42,962 nucleotides of DNA, taken from the NCBI GenBank assembly GCA_024225395.1, contig JAAEMR010000128.1, positions 1 through 42,962 of the forward strand, written 5' to 3'. The stretch is from Gammaproteobacteria bacterium (GTDB lineage Bacteria > Pseudomonadota > Gammaproteobacteria > GCA-001735895). A program made the translations under genes and the position numbers. Each line of letters starts with the position of its first letter. Within the stretch, counting starts at the first letter, position 1. The notes beneath the pieces are model-generated. The model did not search any database. It saw nothing but the letters and a program-made list of their open reading frames with translations, and was not told where the DNA came from. Positions 285 through 9,275 of this stretch are shown in pieces.

Positions 285-893
285 ATGAAAATTTCTGAAT
301 GTTATTACCAGAAGAATGCTAAAGAGTTCTTTCAGGATACAATTCAAGTAGACATGTCTTCCCTACGGGAGCGTTTTCTTACCCATGTGCCTCTTAGGGG
401 ATGTATTCTTGATGCAGGCTGTGGTTCTGGACGAGATGCTAAAGCTTTTATAGAAGCCTCTTTTCAGGTCACTGCGTTTGATGCCGCGCCAGCTTTGGCC
501 AAGTTAGCCCAAGTATATTTTGGCCAGGTTGTTGATGTATTGACTTTTAATCAAATAACTTATGAAAAAGAATTTGATGCTGTTTGGGCTTGTGCGAGCC
601 TATTACACGTTCCTAACAAGAGTTTACCTAAAGTATTTTTAAAGTTATTTCGAGCGCTAAAGTCAGGAGGGGTAATGTATGTTTCATTTAAGTATGGTAG
701 TGGAGAGGTGGAACATAATGGGCGACGATTCACTAATATGAATGAAGGTGACTTTTCACGGTTGTTAGAAGGTATAGGTGTATTTAAACTCATGGATACC
801 TGGGTTAGCAATGATCGTCGTCCTGATCGAGATGACGAAAAATGGTTTAATGCATTGCTAATTTCTACGGGGGATGTATGCCGCAGTGCTTGA
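285..893 (+). CDS. Class I SAM-dependent methyltransferase (TehB-like)
   Basis: A 202-residue protein with a Rossmann-type methyltransferase core. Glycine-rich motif I, LDAGCGSGRD, lies at residues 42-51 and an acidic strand-2 end (TAFDAAP) follows. The strand-4 region WACASLLHV has no Asn-Pro-Pro-Tyr type motif, so an adenine or cytosine-N4 DNA methyltransferase is unlikely. The post-core KSGGVMYVSFKYG is typical of small-molecule or protein methyltransferases. The substrate is unknown. The start is preceded by GGAG. The gene overlaps the following PLD-helicase gene by 16 bases, so the two are probably translated together. I infer a shared role, possibly in defence, from this coupling; it is not shown by the sequence alone. 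Confidence 0.85.
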   Translation: MKISECYYQKNAKEFFQDTIQVDMSSLRERFLTHVPLRGCILDAGCGSGRDAKAFIEASFQVTAFDAAPALAKLAQVYFGQVVDVLTFNQITYEKEFDAVWACASLLHVPNKSLPKVFLKLFRALKSGGVMYVSFKYGSGEVEHNGRRFTNMNEGDFSRLLEGIGVFKLMDTWVSNDRRPDRDDEKWFNALLISTGDVCRSA

Positions 894-3800
894 GTACCGG
901 GGGAGAGTCTGCCCCCTTTCTCACGAAGGTTTTGTCGTCGATTCATCAGGCCGATGAAATAGAGTTGGCGGTATCATTTATTAAAAGCAGTGGGTTGGAG
1001 CTGATTTTTTCTGCACTAAGTGATGCAGTAACAATTCGTGGTACGCGATTAACTGTGTTGACTAGTGATTATCTGGATGTCACTGATCCTCAAGCACTAC
1101 GTAAGCTAATGTTATTGGCTGAACGTGGTGCTGACATTCGTCTGTTTCAAGCAGGTTATTCACGGAGCTTCCATCTTAAAGCCTATATCTTTTTCCGAAA
1201 TCGTGATGGTGAGATTCTCGACGGTACGGCATTTATAGGTTCAAGTAATATCAGCAATGCTGCATTAACGGATGGGATTGAATGGAATTATGGCGTAGGG
1301 TTTTCAGAGAACAAGGAGGGGCAGCAAGTCAGGCATTTCAATGAGATTCGTGAGGAATATAAGTTATTGCTTAATCAGGCACAGGTGATTTCACTAGAAT
1401 ATGATTGGATAGATGCCTATGAGAAGCGCCGTAAGGTAACTCGTTTTCCCGTTGCACCGGGAAGCGACGATCCCGAAATTTCTGCCCCAGATCCCAATGA
1501 AGTGCAAATTGAGGCTTTACAAGCTTTAGTAGATACACGTGAAGCGGGTTATCAACGTGGTTTGGTAGTGATGGCAACTGGTTTGGGTAAAACCTATCTT
1601 GCTGCCTTTGATACAAAACAGACTTGTGCAAAACGTATTTTGTTTGTGGCGCACAGGGAAGAAATACTATTGCAAGCTGAAGCAACTTTTCAGCGCATCC
1701 ATCCTCAAGCAAAAGTAGGCCAATACACCGGTACGCGTAAGGAGACTCAAGTGGACATGATTTTTGCCTCTGTACAGACCTTGGGGCAATCACATCATCT
1801 CGAAAAATTTCCACCGGATCACTTTGATTACTTGATCGTTGATGAATTTCACCATGCCGCAGCACCGACTTACCGACAAATACTGGCTCATTTTCGTCCG
1901 CAATTTCTTCTCGGGCTTACTGCAACACCCGAGCGTACTGACCAGTCTGATATTCTGAGTCTTTGTGATGATAACTTGGTTTATACCTGCAATTTATTTG
2001 ATGGTGTTGACGAAGAATTGTTATGTCCATTTTCTTACTATGGTATTTATGATGAGACAGTTAATTACGAAGCTATCCCTTGGCGTAACAGCCGTTTTGA
2101 TCCTTCTTCGTTGTCCAATAAATTAGCGACGCTGGCCCGTGCCAAACATGCTTTAAATCAATGGCGTGAAAAAGCACAGCAAAAAACGCTCGCATTCTGT
2201 GTATCGAAAAAACATGCTGACTTTATGGCAGATCGATTTAAGCGTGAAGGTATTCGGGCAGTGGCGGTTTATGGTGGCTCTGGGACTGATAGAAGCGATG
2301 CACTAGAACGATTGAAACAGGGAGAGCTGCAAGTGATTTTTTCTGTGGACTTATTCAATGAGGGTGTTGATCTACCTGCCATCGATACTGTAATGATGTT
2401 GCGTCCCACCGAGTCGAAAGTACTTTTTTTACAGCAACTGGGTCGTGGTTTACGGATGCATCAACAAAAGGAACGACTGGTGGTGCTGGATTTTATTGGC
2501 AACCATAAAGGTTTTCTTAACAAACCCCAGGCGTTGTTTGGTGTGGCTGGAAACTATCGTGCACTGGTGGCATTTTCCAAGCGGGTTAAAAATAAGGATT
2601 TAGAGTTACCGGCTGGTTGTTATGTAAACTACGATCTTGAGATCATTGACTTTCTGTCTGGATTGGCTGGTGATGGACCTTCACGCGAATACCAGGCCCT
2701 CAAAGATTCATTGGGTCGCCGCCCCACACTGACTGAGTTTTATCACAGTGGTGCCAGCTTACAAAAACTTCGCCAGCAACATGATAACTGGTGGGGGCTG
2801 GTACGAGATGAAGAGGATCTTAGTGAAATTGAATTGGCTTGCCTAGATTTCCATGAGGATTTTTTTCGGGAGGTGGAAGTCACTACCATGACAAAATCTT
2901 TCAAGGCGGTGTTATTGGAGTCTCTTCTAGCAAATGATGGATTTCGTAAACCACCAAAATTGGAGGTATTAGCCGATCAGGCTCTTGAAGCTTTTCGCCG
3001 CCGCCGTCATTTCATTTCAGACGTGCGTAAAGATCTTCAGAATTTGGATACCGTCGACAAAAATAAATGGATTAGTTATTGGAAAGGAAATCCAGTCAAT
3101 GCATGGACGGGGGGTAACAAGAAAAAAAATGTAAGCCAATGGTTTGAGCTTACTAGCGGATACTTTAAACCGACATTTATCCTGCAGGACAATATCGCTG
3201 ATATTTTTCATACAATGCTACAGGAGTTGGTCGATTACCGTTTTGCCGCTTATGAACCACGTTTACAAAAAGAAAGAAGTGATAACAGCAAAGTACTGCC
3301 ATTTTCTAGTTCAGGAGAGGATGGCAAAACCGAGCTGCCTTATTTCCCTGATTTGCGTATAGCCTGTGGATATTTTCGTGAGGGCAGGGCTGATGTTGAT
3401 GAATATCGAAAAGTTGGTGCAGGACACGGAAATCTTGATCCGGCGCGACATTTTATTGCACGAGCTATAGGTGACTCAATGAATGGTGGCCGTCAACCAG
3501 TCCATGATGGTGATTATTTGCTTTTAGAGTATCTGGATTCAAATCACGCAGGTTCAATTACGGGATCAAAGCTAGTGATTGAACGCCAGGGTGATGGCGG
3601 CGATGATCAATATGTATTACGGCTTGTCACAAAAACACCGGAAGGCAAGTATATATTAAAAGCGACTAATTCAGATTATCCAGATTATGAAGCGGAAGAT
3701 GATATGCGCACATTGGCACGTTTGCGCGATATTCTAGACCCACTTGAAGTGGCGCAAGGACAAGAGTTTATGAGAGAAGATATTCCTGAATTATTCGATG

Positions 3801-4156
3801 AAGAGTTTAACCCCGGGAACTGGCATAGCGGCCATGTTGTTCTTAAAGGCAAGCAAACGCATATTCTATTAGTCACTTTGAATAAACAGGGTAAAGCCAG
3901 TGAGCATCGTTATCATGATTATTTTATTGATGAGAGTCACTTTCACTGGCAAAGTCAAAATAGTACGACCCCGCAAAGTAAACGCGGTAAAGAATTGATT
4001 GAGCATGAAAATCGAGGTGTTACAGTTCACTTATTTGTGCGTGAAAATAAGTTGGCTGCCGGTAAAGCAGCGCCTTTCACGTACTATGGTCCCACAAGGT
4101 ATCAGAAGCATAAGGGTAGTGCGCCGATGAGTGTGATATGGGAACTTGGGGAGTAA
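878..4156 (+). CDS. PLD-nuclease / SF2 helicase / DUF3427 protein with UmuD-like module
   Basis: A 1092-residue multidomain protein. Residues about 20-135 form a phospholipase-D-type nuclease domain, with HLK at 99-101, GSSN at 121-124 and a later Glu in GIEWNY; the Asp of a full HxKx4D is replaced, as in other helicase-linked PLD domains. A superfamily 2 helicase follows: Walker A MATGLGKT (232-239), DEFH box (322-325), and motif VI QQLGRGLR (519-526). The C-terminal third is DUF3427-like. Inside it, residues about 825-935 resemble UmuD/LexA: a Cys-Gly pair (830-831), GDSM with Ser867, then HDGDYLLLE, but Arg915 where the catalytic Lys is expected. It probably cleaves or unwinds DNA, perhaps in phage defence. 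ATG 878 is chosen because it follows a G-rich stretch and overlaps the upstream gene. Confidence 0.88.
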   Translation: MPQCLSTGGESAPFLTKVLSSIHQADEIELAVSFIKSSGLELIFSALSDAVTIRGTRLTVLTSDYLDVTDPQALRKLMLLAERGADIRLFQAGYSRSFHLKAYIFFRNRDGEILDGTAFIGSSNISNAALTDGIEWNYGVGFSENKEGQQVRHFNEIREEYKLLLNQAQVISLEYDWIDAYEKRRKVTRFPVAPGSDDPEISAPDPNEVQIEALQALVDTREAGYQRGLVVMATGLGKTYLAAFDTKQTCAKRILFVAHREEILLQAEATFQRIHPQAKVGQYTGTRKETQVDMIFASVQTLGQSHHLEKFPPDHFDYLIVDEFHHAAAPTYRQILAHFRPQFLLGLTATPERTDQSDILSLCDDNLVYTCNLFDGVDEELLCPFSYYGIYDETVNYEAIPWRNSRFDPSSLSNKLATLARAKHALNQWREKAQQKTLAFCVSKKHADFMADRFKREGIRAVAVYGGSGTDRSDALERLKQGELQVIFSVDLFNEGVDLPAIDTVMMLRPTESKVLFLQQLGRGLRMHQQKERLVVLDFIGNHKGFLNKPQALFGVAGNYRALVAFSKRVKNKDLELPAGCYVNYDLEIIDFLSGLAGDGPSREYQALKDSLGRRPTLTEFYHSGASLQKLRQQHDNWWGLVRDEEDLSEIELACLDFHEDFFREVEVTTMTKSFKAVLLESLLANDGFRKPPKLEVLADQALEAFRRRRHFISDVRKDLQNLDTVDKNKWISYWKGNPVNAWTGGNKKKNVSQWFELTSGYFKPTFILQDNIADIFHTMLQELVDYRFAAYEPRLQKERSDNSKVLPFSSSGEDGKTELPYFPDLRIACGYFREGRADVDEYRKVGAGHGNLDPARHFIARAIGDSMNGGRQPVHDGDYLLLEYLDSNHAGSITGSKLVIERQGDGGDDQYVLRLVTKTPEGKYILKATNSDYPDYEAEDDMRTLARLRDILDPLEVAQGQEFMREDIPELFDEEFNPGNWHSGHVVLKGKQTHILLVTLNKQGKASEHRYHDYFIDESHFHWQSQNSTTPQSKRGKELIEHENRGVTVHLFVRENKLAAGKAAPFTYYGPTRYQKHKGSAPMSVIWELGE

Positions 4157-4268: not shown

Positions 4269-5114
4269 ATGAAAAAAGACTTATATTCAAAATACATTTA
4301 CTCAATAAATACTGAAGGTAGTAATAAAGCATCGTCATATATAAAAGCAATAGATTGGCTCTGTAAGATGCTTGAGGTTGAGCCACTTTCTTTTGACGAT
4401 TGTAAAAATATCTGGACCATTAGTTCAGTCGACCGTTTGCAGCAATTGTATGAGCGAGTATTAATTGAAAAACGTAAGGGTAAATCAAGTGTTTGGGTTA
4501 TTGACGGTATACCCAAAAGTTATTTACGAGATGGATTTTGTTCTGCAGCATTAAGAAGTTATCAGGAGCTTTTGATTGAGAATAATTATGAGCAGACAAT
4601 GGTTGGTATTTTTGACAATCATGAAGGAGAGGAGTCAGAGTTATCTAGTAAGTTTGATAAAGAACTTATTTGTCCAGAGTTTTTAATTGAGGGCATGGAT
4701 GAAAAGCAAGGGCTTGATGTAGTTCGATCTCTAAAAGTCCGAGTTAATCAAAATATTTTCAGGAAAATAATTTTGCGAGTTTATAATCAAACATGCTGTA
4801 TTACTGGTTTAAATATTCCAGAGATAAATCGAGCTAGCCATATTATTCCATGGGCTAATGATGAAACTAAAAGATTGGAACCTCAAAATGGACTTTGTTT
4901 GTCGGCAACCTATGATGCTGCATTTGACAAAAACCTCATCAGTCTGGATGATGATTATCGACTATTAATCTCTAAAAATATCAAAGAATATGGTACAAAT
5001 GAGGTAGTGAATAACTATTTTATTTGTAAAGAGGGTGTGAATATACTTTTGCCTGATAGTTATAGACCCAATAAAAATTATCTAGCTTTACATCGTAACA
5101 AGGGTGAGTTTTAG
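4269..5114 (+). CDS. HNH endonuclease (HNH_2 type)
   Basis: A 281-residue protein. The N-terminal half (about 1-110) is a domain found with HNH nucleases in restriction-like proteins, containing DDCKNIW and an LDG/IDGIPKSYL-type segment. The C-terminal half carries an HNH_2 nuclease: CCITGL, then the catalytic-type ASHIIPWA, then PQNGLCLSATYDAAFD. It lies 112 bases downstream of the PLD-helicase gene on the same strand and may be its effector nuclease partner, or an independent restriction-like enzyme. The upstream gap shows no strong Shine-Dalgarno, and the ATG at 4269 is the first in frame. Base composition is more AT-rich than the helicase gene. DNA is the probable substrate by family; specificity is unknown. 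Confidence 0.82.
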   Translation: MKKDLYSKYIYSINTEGSNKASSYIKAIDWLCKMLEVEPLSFDDCKNIWTISSVDRLQQLYERVLIEKRKGKSSVWVIDGIPKSYLRDGFCSAALRSYQELLIENNYEQTMVGIFDNHEGEESELSSKFDKELICPEFLIEGMDEKQGLDVVRSLKVRVNQNIFRKIILRVYNQTCCITGLNIPEINRASHIIPWANDETKRLEPQNGLCLSATYDAAFDKNLISLDDDYRLLISKNIKEYGTNEVVNNYFICKEGVNILLPDSYRPNKNYLALHRNKGEF

Positions 5115-5130
5115 CGATATCTTCTCCTGT

Positions 5131-5289
5131 TAAAATTTTTATTAAAAATCAGCTTCAGAACTGGCCAGACAATTGGGTACAGAAAGACAAAACCTGAAAT
5201 CGTATGAAAATAAAAAATCAACAGACCTTAATAATCGGATTATTAGTTTGCTGATGGAATACATTGAGGGGACAGACAAGCAGGGTTGA
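5131..5289 (+). pseudogene. HTH gene remnant, copy 1 (direct repeat with 6748-6891)
   Basis: A start-less open stretch from 5149 encodes 46 residues beginning SASELARQLGTERQNLKSYE, a helix-turn-helix-like segment similar to XRE-type antitoxins, and ends at TGA 5287-5289. Bases 5161-5267 match 6781-6887 with about 12 differences (about 89 % identity) and no gaps. The differences are mostly at third codon positions, so this was once coding sequence. The upstream part is out of frame with the match in copy 2, so this copy is broken. No start codon or ribosome binding site precedes it. Confidence 0.65.
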
Positions 5290-5371
5290 GTTTTTCAACT
5301 ATTTGAAACTGCTTCTTAACTAACATGGCAATCCTTGACGAAATCCATTTTTTAACCAATACTTGTCCTAA

Positions 5372-5388
5372 GTCCCGGGATACGGGAC
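5372..5388. promoter_or_regulatory. Palindromic operator candidate before AbiE-like pair
   Basis: GTCCCG-GGATA-CGGGAC is a perfect 6-base inverted repeat around a 5-base centre, ending 18 bases before the ATG at 5407. A wider pair, CTTGTCC (5362-5368) and GGACAAG (5385-5391), is also inverted. The position fits an operator or a 5' leader hairpin. AbiEi-type antitoxins are known to bind inverted repeats at their own promoters, so autoregulation by the 208-residue winged-helix protein is a reasonable inference. Confidence 0.5.
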
Positions 5389-5406
5389 AAGAATGGGTGT
5401 CAGGAT

Positions 5407-6033
5407 ATGAAAGGTCAGGATATAGGTTTACTGTTAAAGCTGGTTTGCCTGCAAAAGAGAGAACAGGGGCTTTCTCCTGTTTATATGCCCGGTAGTTGGG
5501 AGGACTGGGGTGTGGATGGGCATGATGATCAGGTACAGGTTGAGGATGTTCCCGGTTATTATCATCAATATACAGTACGAGCTTTAGCTCAGTTGACTGG
5601 TATCAGTAAGTCTCAGGTTAATTTGGCGTTGCAAAGGAATTTCGATTCGGGTCTGGCAAATCGTGATCGAAAAATTGATGTTCCTCGCGCAAACATTAGA
5701 GCATTATCTGAATTTATAGTTTATGGCTTACGTTATGTGTTTCCGGTAAAGCCTGGTACTGTAACTCGAGGCATATCAACCTCTTTAGCAGCGCCAGTGC
5801 TAGAAGGTAAGCTTTCTAGTGCAGGCGAATTGCCGCCTGTATGGTCCGATGCTAAAGGAAATACCAGAGGACAGGTGATAGAGCCGTTATTTAAGTCGGT
5901 ACCCTATGCGGTCAGGCTGGATGCGGAACTGTATGCCTTGCTGGCATTAGTTGATGCGATAAGAATAGGGCAGTCTCGTGAGCGCAATTTGGCGATTAAA
6001 CTGTTGAGTGAGCATTTGGAGGTCCTTCAATGA
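5407..6033 (+). CDS. Winged-helix protein, putative AbiEi-like antitoxin/regulator
   Basis: A 208-residue protein with a helix-turn-helix at about residues 55-80 (YTVRALAQLTGISKSQVNLA) and a winged-helix-like continuation rich in basic residues. The C-terminal half is not recognised. It overlaps the following nucleotidyltransferase gene by 4 bases (ATGA), the usual arrangement of a regulator/toxin pair. By analogy with AbiE systems it would be the DNA-binding antitoxin and autorepressor. A palindrome lies directly upstream. It is not a clear match to the classical AbiEi domains, so the pair may belong to a related, less-studied family. The start has AGGA close upstream (TCAGGATATG). Confidence 0.65.
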   Translation: MKGQDIGLLLKLVCLQKREQGLSPVYMPGSWEDWGVDGHDDQVQVEDVPGYYHQYTVRALAQLTGISKSQVNLALQRNFDSGLANRDRKIDVPRANIRALSEFIVYGLRYVFPVKPGTVTRGISTSLAAPVLEGKLSSAGELPPVWSDAKGNTRGQVIEPLFKSVPYAVRLDAELYALLALVDAIRIGQSRERNLAIKLLSEHLEVLQ

Positions 6034-6725
6034 AGAATGCCGATATACATAAGGATATGTTGATTCGAGTTGCCGAAGGGCTTGGTGGGGAACTGCTTCC
6101 AAAATTTGTTTTTGTTGGAGGGTGTACGACGGCATTGTTGGTAACGGATGAATTTACCCGTGAGCAAATCAGGCATACTGATGATGTTGATCTGATCGTG
6201 CACCTGGCTGGCTACGCCAGTTATACACAGTTAATAAGTAAATTGCGATCGAAAGGCTTTATGGAGAGACCGGATAATGATTCTCCAATTTGTGCCATGT
6301 GGCTGGATGATTTGCGTGTTGACATTATGCCTGATGATGAGTCAATACTCGGCTTTTCGAACCGTTGGTACAGGGGTGCTGTAAAGACTGTAGAATATTT
6401 CTGTTTGAGTGATCAGGTTCAAATCAAATTAATAAAACCTGTTTATTTTGTAGCGACCAAGTTAGAGGCTTATTTGGGTAGAGGTAATAATGACCCGTTA
6501 TCAAGTCATGATATTGAGGATTTACTGAATGTTTTTGACGGTCGGCCAGAGCTTTTATCCGAATTGAAACAGGCTCCCTTAGAGTTGAAAGATTTTATAT
6601 CCACTCAAATATCTTCATTATTAAAAAGCAATGATTTTGAATATGCCGTAAAAAGTTGTTCTGTGGGCGATGCATTGAGGGAGCAGTTAATTTTTGACAG
6701 ACTGGAAGGTGCTTGTGAGTTATAA
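6030..6725 (+). CDS. Nucleotidyltransferase, AbiEii/MNT-like putative toxin
   Basis: A 231-residue protein of the DNA polymerase beta-like nucleotidyltransferase superfamily. The Gly-Gly signature is FVGGCTTALL (GG at 30-31), the metal-binding pair is in HTDDVDLIV (Asp52 and Asp54), and a third acidic residue is in LRVDIMP (Asp98). All three catalytic positions are intact. Family members transfer nucleotides to tRNA or protein targets and act as toxins in abortive infection or toxin-antitoxin systems; the target here is unknown. It is translationally coupled by ATGA to the winged-helix gene. The pair sits between two direct HTH remnants, which suggests it arrived as a cassette. Confidence 0.78.
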   Translation: MKNADIHKDMLIRVAEGLGGELLPKFVFVGGCTTALLVTDEFTREQIRHTDDVDLIVHLAGYASYTQLISKLRSKGFMERPDNDSPICAMWLDDLRVDIMPDDESILGFSNRWYRGAVKTVEYFCLSDQVQIKLIKPVYFVATKLEAYLGRGNNDPLSSHDIEDLLNVFDGRPELLSELKQAPLELKDFISTQISSLLKSNDFEYAVKSCSVGDALREQLIFDRLEGACEL

Positions 6726-7658: not shown

Positions 7659-7678
7659 CAGTGCCTTATTAATTGAAA

Positions 7679-7719
7679 GAATCTGTATTCGGTAGATTCA
7701 CCCTAAGTCCGACAGATTC
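7679..7719. repeat. Inverted repeat between convergent genes
   Basis: GAATCTGT (7679-7686) is the exact inverse of ACAGATTC (7712-7719). A shorter alternative partner AGATTC lies at 7694-7699, so two hairpins compete. The element sits between convergent DUF502 and rhomboid genes. It lacks a U-run, so a role as a bidirectional terminator is only possible, not shown. Confidence 0.35.
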
Positions 7720-7723
7720 CAGG

Positions 7724-8386
7724 TCATGGTTCATCATCAAATATCGATACTTCATCCTCCTCATCATCTTCCCAGCTATATTTTTTCTCAGGTGAATAGG
7801 GGTCATAGTTTCTGAGCAGTATAGCCAGAACTATGCCGATCACGGCACCAAAGAAGTGGCTTTCAAAGGATATGTCCGGTTTACTCGGGAAGATGCCCCA
7901 GATCATGCCGCCGTATAGAAAGAATACGATCATGGACAGGACACTCGCCCGTCTGTCCCAGCGAATGACACCAATGGTAAAAACGAAGAACATAAAACCA
8001 AATGTCAGGCCGCTGATACCGATATGATAAGACTGTCTTGCAAAAAGCCAGACACCCAGCCCGGTACCGATGTATACGGCAGGTATTACAAGTTTTGCTG
8101 ATTTGGGGTAACCGTATAACAGGGCTGTGCCCAATATGAGAAGAGGTGCCGTGTTGGCTAGCAGGTGTGAGAATGAGCTATGAATTAATGGTGCCCAGAG
8201 AATAGCGGCCAGTCCGCTCATCTGGCCTGGATAAATACCATATTTGAAGAGCTCGATGCCCGTTAATGACTCGATGATTTTAATCAGCCACAGGGCTAGC
8301 GTGAACGATGCCACAATAGTAAAAGACCGGTTCAGCAGAAGGAAGTCTTTATTTGGATTGCTTAAAACTCGAGGTATTGAGTGCAT
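7724..8386 (-). CDS. Rhomboid-family intramembrane serine protease
   Basis: A 220-residue polytopic membrane protein with about six hydrophobic segments. The rhomboid catalytic features are present: SHLLAN (His74, Asn78) in transmembrane segment 2, the GxSG-type motif GISG with nucleophile Ser125, and His177 in FESHFFGA. It would cleave transmembrane segments of other proteins in the inner membrane; the substrate is unknown. The C-terminus is a strongly acidic cytoplasmic tail (EDDEEDEVSIFDDEP). The Ser/His dyad is complete, so the enzyme is probably active. It is divergent from the methyltransferase gene at 8571, with a 184-base gap between them. Confidence 0.9.
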   Translation of the reverse strand: MHSIPRVLSNPNKDFLLLNRSFTIVASFTLALWLIKIIESLTGIELFKYGIYPGQMSGLAAILWAPLIHSSFSHLLANTAPLLILGTALLYGYPKSAKLVIPAVYIGTGLGVWLFARQSYHIGISGLTFGFMFFVFTIGVIRWDRRASVLSMIVFFLYGGMIWGIFPSKPDISFESHFFGAVIGIVLAILLRNYDPYSPEKKYSWEDDEEDEVSIFDDEP

Positions 8387-8570
8387 GGCATCAGTTGTAG
8401 ATGATTTGAGTGTTTTTGTCTTTCAGGCCAGAGTAACTGCATTCTATGTATCTGGTGACAGATTAAAGTTATTCAATAGTTTGTAAGGCTGATAGTATTC
8501 CATCTAAGAGCATGACGGAATGACGGTTTGGAAGTCCGTTGAACGTTAGTTATTGATGTGAGGTTATTCA

Positions 8571-9275
8571 ATGAAAATAGCAGCAGAACATGTAGAGGTT
8601 AACTGTCTCGAAGCCGATATCTATGATCGCCTGTTATCACTCGATAGCAGCCATATTCTGGAGTTGGGTTGTGGTAGTGCGGATATAACTCGTAATATTG
8701 CCACTTCTGGAATTGATCGAAAAATTACAGCCCTGGAAGTTGATGAAATTGCGCATCAAAAAAATCTGCAGATTAGCGATCTGCCGAATGTGACTTTTGG
8801 CCTTTCCGGTGCGCAGGATATTCCGTTGGATGATGAATCGGTCGATGTGGTGTTTATGTTCAAATCTTTGCATCATGTTCCACTCGATTTAATGGAAGTA
8901 TCGATGCGGGAAATTAATCGCGTGTTAAAGCCCGGTGGTCTGGCGTATATTTCTGAACCTGTTTTTGCCGGAGAGTTTAACGAAATATTACGCTTGTTTC
9001 ATGATGAGCAGGTAGTTCGTGAAGCAGCCTTCAATACAGTCAAAAAAGTAGTGGATGATGGTTTGTTCAGTCTGGTCGATGAAGTCTTTTTTAATACGCC
9101 GTTACATTATGAAAATTTTGTTGCATTTGAAAATGATTCGATAAAAGTTAGCTATGGTGATTACCAGCTGGATGCTGATTTGTATAACCTGGTTAAGCAG
9201 CGTTTTGAGCAGCACATGGGAGATGAAGGGGCACATTTTTTACATCCCATACGCGTCGATTTATTGCAGAAGTAA
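8571..9275 (+). CDS. Class I SAM-dependent methyltransferase (Methyltransf_11-like)
   Basis: A 234-residue protein with motif I ILELGCGSADIT near residue 30, an acidic strand-2 end (LEVDE), an IPLDDESVDVVFMFKSLHHV strand-4 region, and INRVLKPGGLAYISEP. This is the usual Methyltransf_11 pattern. The substrate cannot be read from the sequence. The C-terminal 80 residues, beyond the core, contain several acidic and aromatic residues and no recognised domain. The start has GTGAGG 9 bases upstream. It stands alone, not in an obvious operon. Confidence 0.85.
   Translation: MKIAAEHVEVNCLEADIYDRLLSLDSSHILELGCGSADITRNIATSGIDRKITALEVDEIAHQKNLQISDLPNVTFGLSGAQDIPLDDESVDVVFMFKSLHHVPLDLMEVSMREINRVLKPGGLAYISEPVFAGEFNEILRLFHDEQVVREAAFNTVKKVVDDGLFSLVDEVFFNTPLHYENFVAFENDSIKVSYGDYQLDADLYNLVKQRFEQHMGDEGAHFLHPIRVDLLQK

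Follow-up and report, generated by a model that had tools for sequence, protein, structure and literature searches.

The modification-dependent restriction enzyme SauUSI is built from a PLD nuclease (residues 1-191), an ATPase (221-617), a coupler (618-805) and an SRA reader (806-953) (PMC7913695). An S24 domain is missing from it, and its description includes no methyltransferase. The LexA, UmuD and CI proteins of the Peptidase S24 family cleave themselves at a Cys-Gly or Ala-Gly site with a Ser-Lys pair. Restriction enzymes have to be held back whenever a cell suffers damage to its own DNA, and a built-in LexA/UmuD-type domain would directly link damage signalling to restriction at the protein level. 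In the window, the whole stretch of 42,962 nucleotides analysed here (Gammaproteobacteria bacterium, contig JAAEMR010000128.1), the following features were assigned in and around a gene with both kinds of domain.

285-893, + strand: class I SAM-dependent methyltransferase, 202 residues (Pfam Methyltransf_25/11), overlapping the start of the helicase gene
878-4156, + strand: SauUSI-like enzyme, 1092 residues, in the order PLDc_2, SF2 helicase, coupler, S24, SRA/DUF3427 (Pfam, PDB 7clg, PADLOC)
953-1282, + strand: PLD nuclease domain, residues 26-135 (Pfam PLDc_2; His99 and Lys101 conserved)
1493-2458, + strand: SF2 helicase/ATPase core, residues 206-527 (Pfam ResIII and Helicase_C)
3338-3736, + strand: Peptidase_S24 (LexA/UmuD/CI-type) domain, residues ~821-953 (Pfam, conservation, predicted fold)
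3365-3370, + strand: Cys830-Gly831, equivalent of the UmuD/CI scissile bond (invariant in 77 homologues from the best 80 of 253)
3476-3478, + strand: Ser867, equivalent of the nucleophile (invariant in 77 homologues from the best 80 of 253)
3620-3622, + strand: Arg915, at the position of the catalytic Lys (Arg in 77/77 homologues from the best 80 of 253)
3758-4114, + strand: SRA-type target-recognition domain, the C-terminal half of DUF3427, residues 961-1079 (Pfam; alignment with the SauUSI SRA)
4269-5114, + strand: HNH endonuclease, an optional neighbour (Pfam HNH_2, NCBIfam PT-DNA_restrict-like, PADLOC HNH)

By its sequence, the 1092-residue protein belongs with the SauUSI-like (type IV restriction) enzymes. 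SauUSI is the closest solved structure (PDB 7clg, E 2e-91, best stretch residues 11-559), and the PADLOC model mREase_IV matches with 395 bits. The PLD nuclease, SF2 ATPase, helical coupler and SRA reader follow in identical order in both enzymes, and the catalytic and motor residues His99, Lys101, Gly237, Lys238 and DEFH 322-325 are kept in the alignment, with the Pfam domains ResIII and Helicase_C at residues 206-353 and 430-527. Because the C-terminus aligns with residues 808-901 of the SauUSI SRA, which follows directly on the coupler, S24 falls precisely at the junction of coupler and reader; in an S24-less relative (locus L012) the coupler runs directly into the SRA. The modified-cytosine pocket appears to be partly conserved: the positions of SauUSI Asp858 and Trp868 are again occupied by Asp and Trp, whereas His stands opposite Tyr831, the residue that the SauUSI model places in contact with the methyl group.

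A sequence-only reading of this DNA had proposed a UmuD/LexA-like module inside a PLD-helicase-DUF3427 protein, and both Pfam and structure prediction uphold it. Peptidase_S24 (PF00717) matches residues 827-945 with E 1.5e-5, scoring 25.1 bits where the cut-off is 23.3, and the S24 excerpt searched alone reached E 6.4e-7. An AlphaFold model of the module, built on a 77-sequence alignment (pLDDT 70.8), is all-beta and has the S24 fold that this reading had proposed to look for. The module model resembles lambda CI bound to RecA (8gmu; VIA Z 12.4, 118 residues, 2.5 A), the LexA mutant 1jhe (VIA Z 12.4), the P. aeruginosa LexA-RecA complex (8s7g; VIA Z 12.3) and UmuD' (VIA Z 7.8), and Foldseek gave E 1e-5. 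The full-length model had a pTM of only 0.43, and its fold search was swamped by helicases. A chance likeness to UmuD/LexA is favoured by a single result, a phmmer search of the excerpt against the PDB that found no S24 entry, and is ruled out with near certainty by the Pfam score above cut-off, the Z of 12.4 and the 77 homologues. Thus, judged by Pfam, predicted fold and conservation, the S24 domain is real and the resemblance far beyond chance.

One scan of bacterial genomes returned 253 relatives, of which the best 80, mostly from Beta- and Gammaproteobacteria, were kept; 77 S24 regions were aligned, and further counts were made on 64 full-length rows. Cys830, Gly831, Ser867 and Arg915 are invariant in all 77 aligned regions (best 80 of 253), rows that are mutually related and 53-97% identical to the window protein. 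The two DNA patterns used for retrieval end before Cys-Gly and before Ser, and therefore the invariant columns are not biased by retrieval. More distant members outside the 77 (L004, L005, L006, L010 and L135-L138) likewise have C-G, S and R at each of these positions that their sequence covers. All residues named by the sequence-only reading lie where it had put them (in ORF 878-4156, Cys830 at 3365-3367, Gly831 at 3368-3370, Lys919 at 3632-3634, besides Ser867 and Arg915), with a Cys-to-Ser spacing of 37, and the comparison of homologues it had suggested found Cys-Gly and Ser867 invariant and Arg at the Lys position.

The domain shares with LexA, UmuD and CI the S24 fold, the equivalent of the Cys-Gly loop, the invariant Ser and a similar Cys-Ser spacing. 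Unlike these proteins, it is embedded in a restriction enzyme, is longer by roughly two to three residues following the Ser motif and carries Arg for the catalytic Lys in every member. Measured against the self-cleaving proteins, the Cys-Gly site and Ser are present and the catalytic Lys is absent (Arg in 77/77 from the best 80 of 253). In related genomes, 26/26 free-standing LexA/UmuD proteins show Ala-Gly, Ser and Lys, and the S24 domains in other helicase tails have Lys in 5/5, with Ala-Gly. The best-matching free-standing plasmid protein is a CI-like repressor with Cys-Gly, Ser and Lys; among free-standing S24 proteins in general, CI-type prophage repressors come closest, and the one whose sequence was read has Lys. 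The mean frequency of the top residue is 0.78 in S24, 0.80-0.81 in the RecA domains, 0.70 in PLD, 0.62 in the coupler and 0.76 in the SRA (best 80 of 253). In conservation S24 is roughly on a par with the motor, and it is therefore not decaying. On the nuclease-motor tree the S24-bearing enzymes cluster in 60% of bootstrap trees, compatible with one gain. The uniform exchange of Lys for Arg across Beta- and Gammaproteobacteria is a natural test of S24 function without the catalytic base, and the same genome supplies a Ser-Lys version for comparison.

This version is the C-terminal domain of a second S24-tailed SF2 helicase of 1048 residues (locus L134, G000:C132, 2211-5357, - strand), with the motifs IAAGGF, HGQSM and FTIKR, that is, an Ala-Gly site and an intact Ser-Lys pair. 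Its N-terminus is PD-(D/E)XK-like by eye, with no Pfam match, and a methyltransferase gene (5347-5964, - strand) overlaps and precedes the helicase gene. Like the window enzyme, it combines methyltransferase, nuclease, SF2 helicase and S24; unlike it, the nuclease is different, S24 is C-terminal with Ala-Gly and Ser-Lys, and there is no SRA. Because a PD-(D/E)XK-like SF2 helicase of genome G397 has an Arg-type S24 together with the methyltransferase type of the window, S24 and methyltransferase move between helicases. Four Schlafen-group-3 helicases also end in a Ser-Lys S24 domain.

L169, 240-2726, - strand: Schlafen-group-3 helicase with C-terminal Ser-Lys S24
L170, 4053-6440, + strand: Schlafen-group-3 helicase with C-terminal Ser-Lys S24
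L171, 4874-7123, - strand: Schlafen-group-3 helicase with C-terminal Ser-Lys S24
L172, 3930-6125, + strand: Schlafen-group-3 helicase with C-terminal Ser-Lys S24

These four are, like the window enzyme, NTPases carrying an S24 domain with Ser, placed C-terminally and with an Ala-Gly loop, but they belong to another helicase superfamily and have Ser-Lys. Their S24 domains are 39-44% identical to that of L134, and the L171 and L172 proteins have an N-terminal GIY-YIG-like nuclease below or near the Pfam cut-off. No PADLOC model spans any S24-bearing enzyme; only the nuclease or helicase parts match. A limited open-access literature search found no report of an S24-restriction helicase fusion. 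By sequence comparison, the window enzyme would add a new variant to the SauUSI-like enzymes and belong to a broader group of nuclease-helicases with S24 tails. It is conceivable, if somewhat doubtful, that S24 serves as a regulatory tail shared by several nuclease-helicase defence enzymes with no relation to one another, which would wire a RecA/SOS signal directly into restriction, post-translationally, through self-cleavage (Ser-Lys) or through a non-cleaving Ser-Arg sensor (SauUSI-like).

One S24-tailed helicase gene is split inside S24 between L138 (5503-8433, - strand) and L103 (G397:C1, 3105751-3146249); ~38 kb separates the halves, and genes identified by eye as Mu-type transposase A and B adjoin the break, which is apparently due to a Mu-like prophage insertion. 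In Aeromonas caviae (L011, 5989-10101) a methyltransferase-coupled helicase gene is broken by a transposase-like ORF at 7659-9110, and on a Pseudoalteromonas piscicida plasmid (L187, 4893-5264) a degenerate helicase fragment is joined to most of an Arg-type S24. Viral contigs gave pattern matches but no confirmed S24-helicase relative. In the phage collection DUF3427-only matches occur, and the S24 part is matched only by free-standing repressors (E 0.008-0.09, weak).

A methyltransferase is present at 65 of the 66 S24-bearing loci with enough context, 63 of the 285-893 type and two of another type, versus 0 of 11 S24-less SauUSI-like loci; at the one exception, L046, the contig ends too soon. 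About 48 homologues carry it as an N-terminal fusion to the helicase, and in L033 and L039 the other type is convergent and downstream of the S24 helicase. An S24 helicase of genome G522 (L136) is flanked by both types, 1703-2308 (+) upstream and 5216-5875 (-) convergent downstream. The Pfam and NCBIfam matches of the 285-893 product include no DNA-methyltransferase family, and its best PDB match is the uncharacterised RPA2492. From its sequence, it is not recognisably a DNA methyltransferase.

LexA boxes were sought upstream of the S24-enzyme operons and, allowing one mismatch, were found in 6 of 63 against 4.2 expected, which is no enrichment. This argues against an SOS link but bears on transcription only; on the same count LexA-box control of the operon was rejected. 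The window as a whole has 29 CTGT-N8-ACAG sites, allowing at most one mismatch, versus 12.7 expected from shuffles; they are spread throughout.

The reading that we prefer, to which we give an even chance, is that of a methyltransferase-coupled SauUSI-like restriction enzyme in which S24 joins the motor to the SRA reader as a regulatory switch. We infer this role from the sequence and by analogy, and DNA-damage-type signalling may in this way be built into a restriction enzyme. The Cys-Gly loop would sit docked in the cleft of Ser and Arg, the arrangement that LexA and CI adopt in their cleavable state. A partner, either RecA-ssDNA filaments by family analogy or a target of the methyltransferase, would then bind the docked S24 and change the communication between reader and motor, thereby permitting or blocking the action of the nuclease. 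In the Arg-type subfamily the domain probably cuts itself at 830/831 slowly or not at all; in the Ser-Lys tails of the other helicases self-cleavage would be expected to be real. Because about 13 S24-bearing members end right after S24, without an SRA, a role as the joint between motor and reader is not universal. Also against this reading, a pure binder would not need the strict Ser, which leaves room for a working Ser-Arg pair. The sequence-only reading had offered a DNA-damage-responsive or pseudo-protease switch; this is partly supported, the pseudo-protease half gaining strength from the invariant Arg that stands where Lys belongs.

The domain could alternatively be an active self-protease, with Arg915 as the base and RecA filaments or another trigger stimulating cleavage of Cys830-Gly831, so that nuclease and motor are separated from the S24 core and the SRA and restriction is switched off during DNA damage (alleviation) or the nuclease is freed. 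A parting of nuclease-motor from reader at 830/831 would, speculatively, suit restriction alleviation during DNA damage. The joint invariance of Cys-Gly, Ser and Arg (best 80 of 253) goes beyond the needs of a dead domain, the other helicase tails retain Ser-Lys with Ala-Gly, and the predicted model fits cleavable LexA and CI conformations. However, at neutral pH Arg serves very poorly as a general base, Lys is present in every free-standing S24 protein sampled, and LexA K156R is strongly impaired, so we regard such a protease as unlikely. An open-access literature search found no paper on LexA K156R.

S24 might also be a piece of a former repressor, domesticated solely to dimerise, to dock proteins or to act as a rigid spacer, with no link to DNA damage. 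This would agree with the loss of Lys, with the lack of LexA-box enrichment upstream and with S24 forming the C-terminus of the SRA-less members, like a plain docking tail; yet a dimerisation module would not need an invariant cleft Cys-Gly and Ser, and this explanation appears distinctly improbable. There is likewise a low probability that the methyltransferase is the true partner, modifying S24 or a cell component sensed by S24 in a toxin-antitoxin-like or self/non-self switch. The contrast of 65/66 with 0/11 loci speaks for it, as does the exchangeability of two different methyltransferase types (L135, L136), whereas no methyltransferase was found near the Schlafen-group-3 S24 helicases L169-L172.

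Other genes accompany the enzyme. In the neighbour scan, an HNH gene also lies directly downstream of the S24 helicase in L019. The overlapping window genes 5407-6033 and 6030-6725 (both + strand) match the PADLOC phage-defence candidates PDC-M21A and PDC-M21B, and in L006 a homologue of the 5407-6033 product adjoins the S24 helicase; the left end of the window thus has the look of a defence island.
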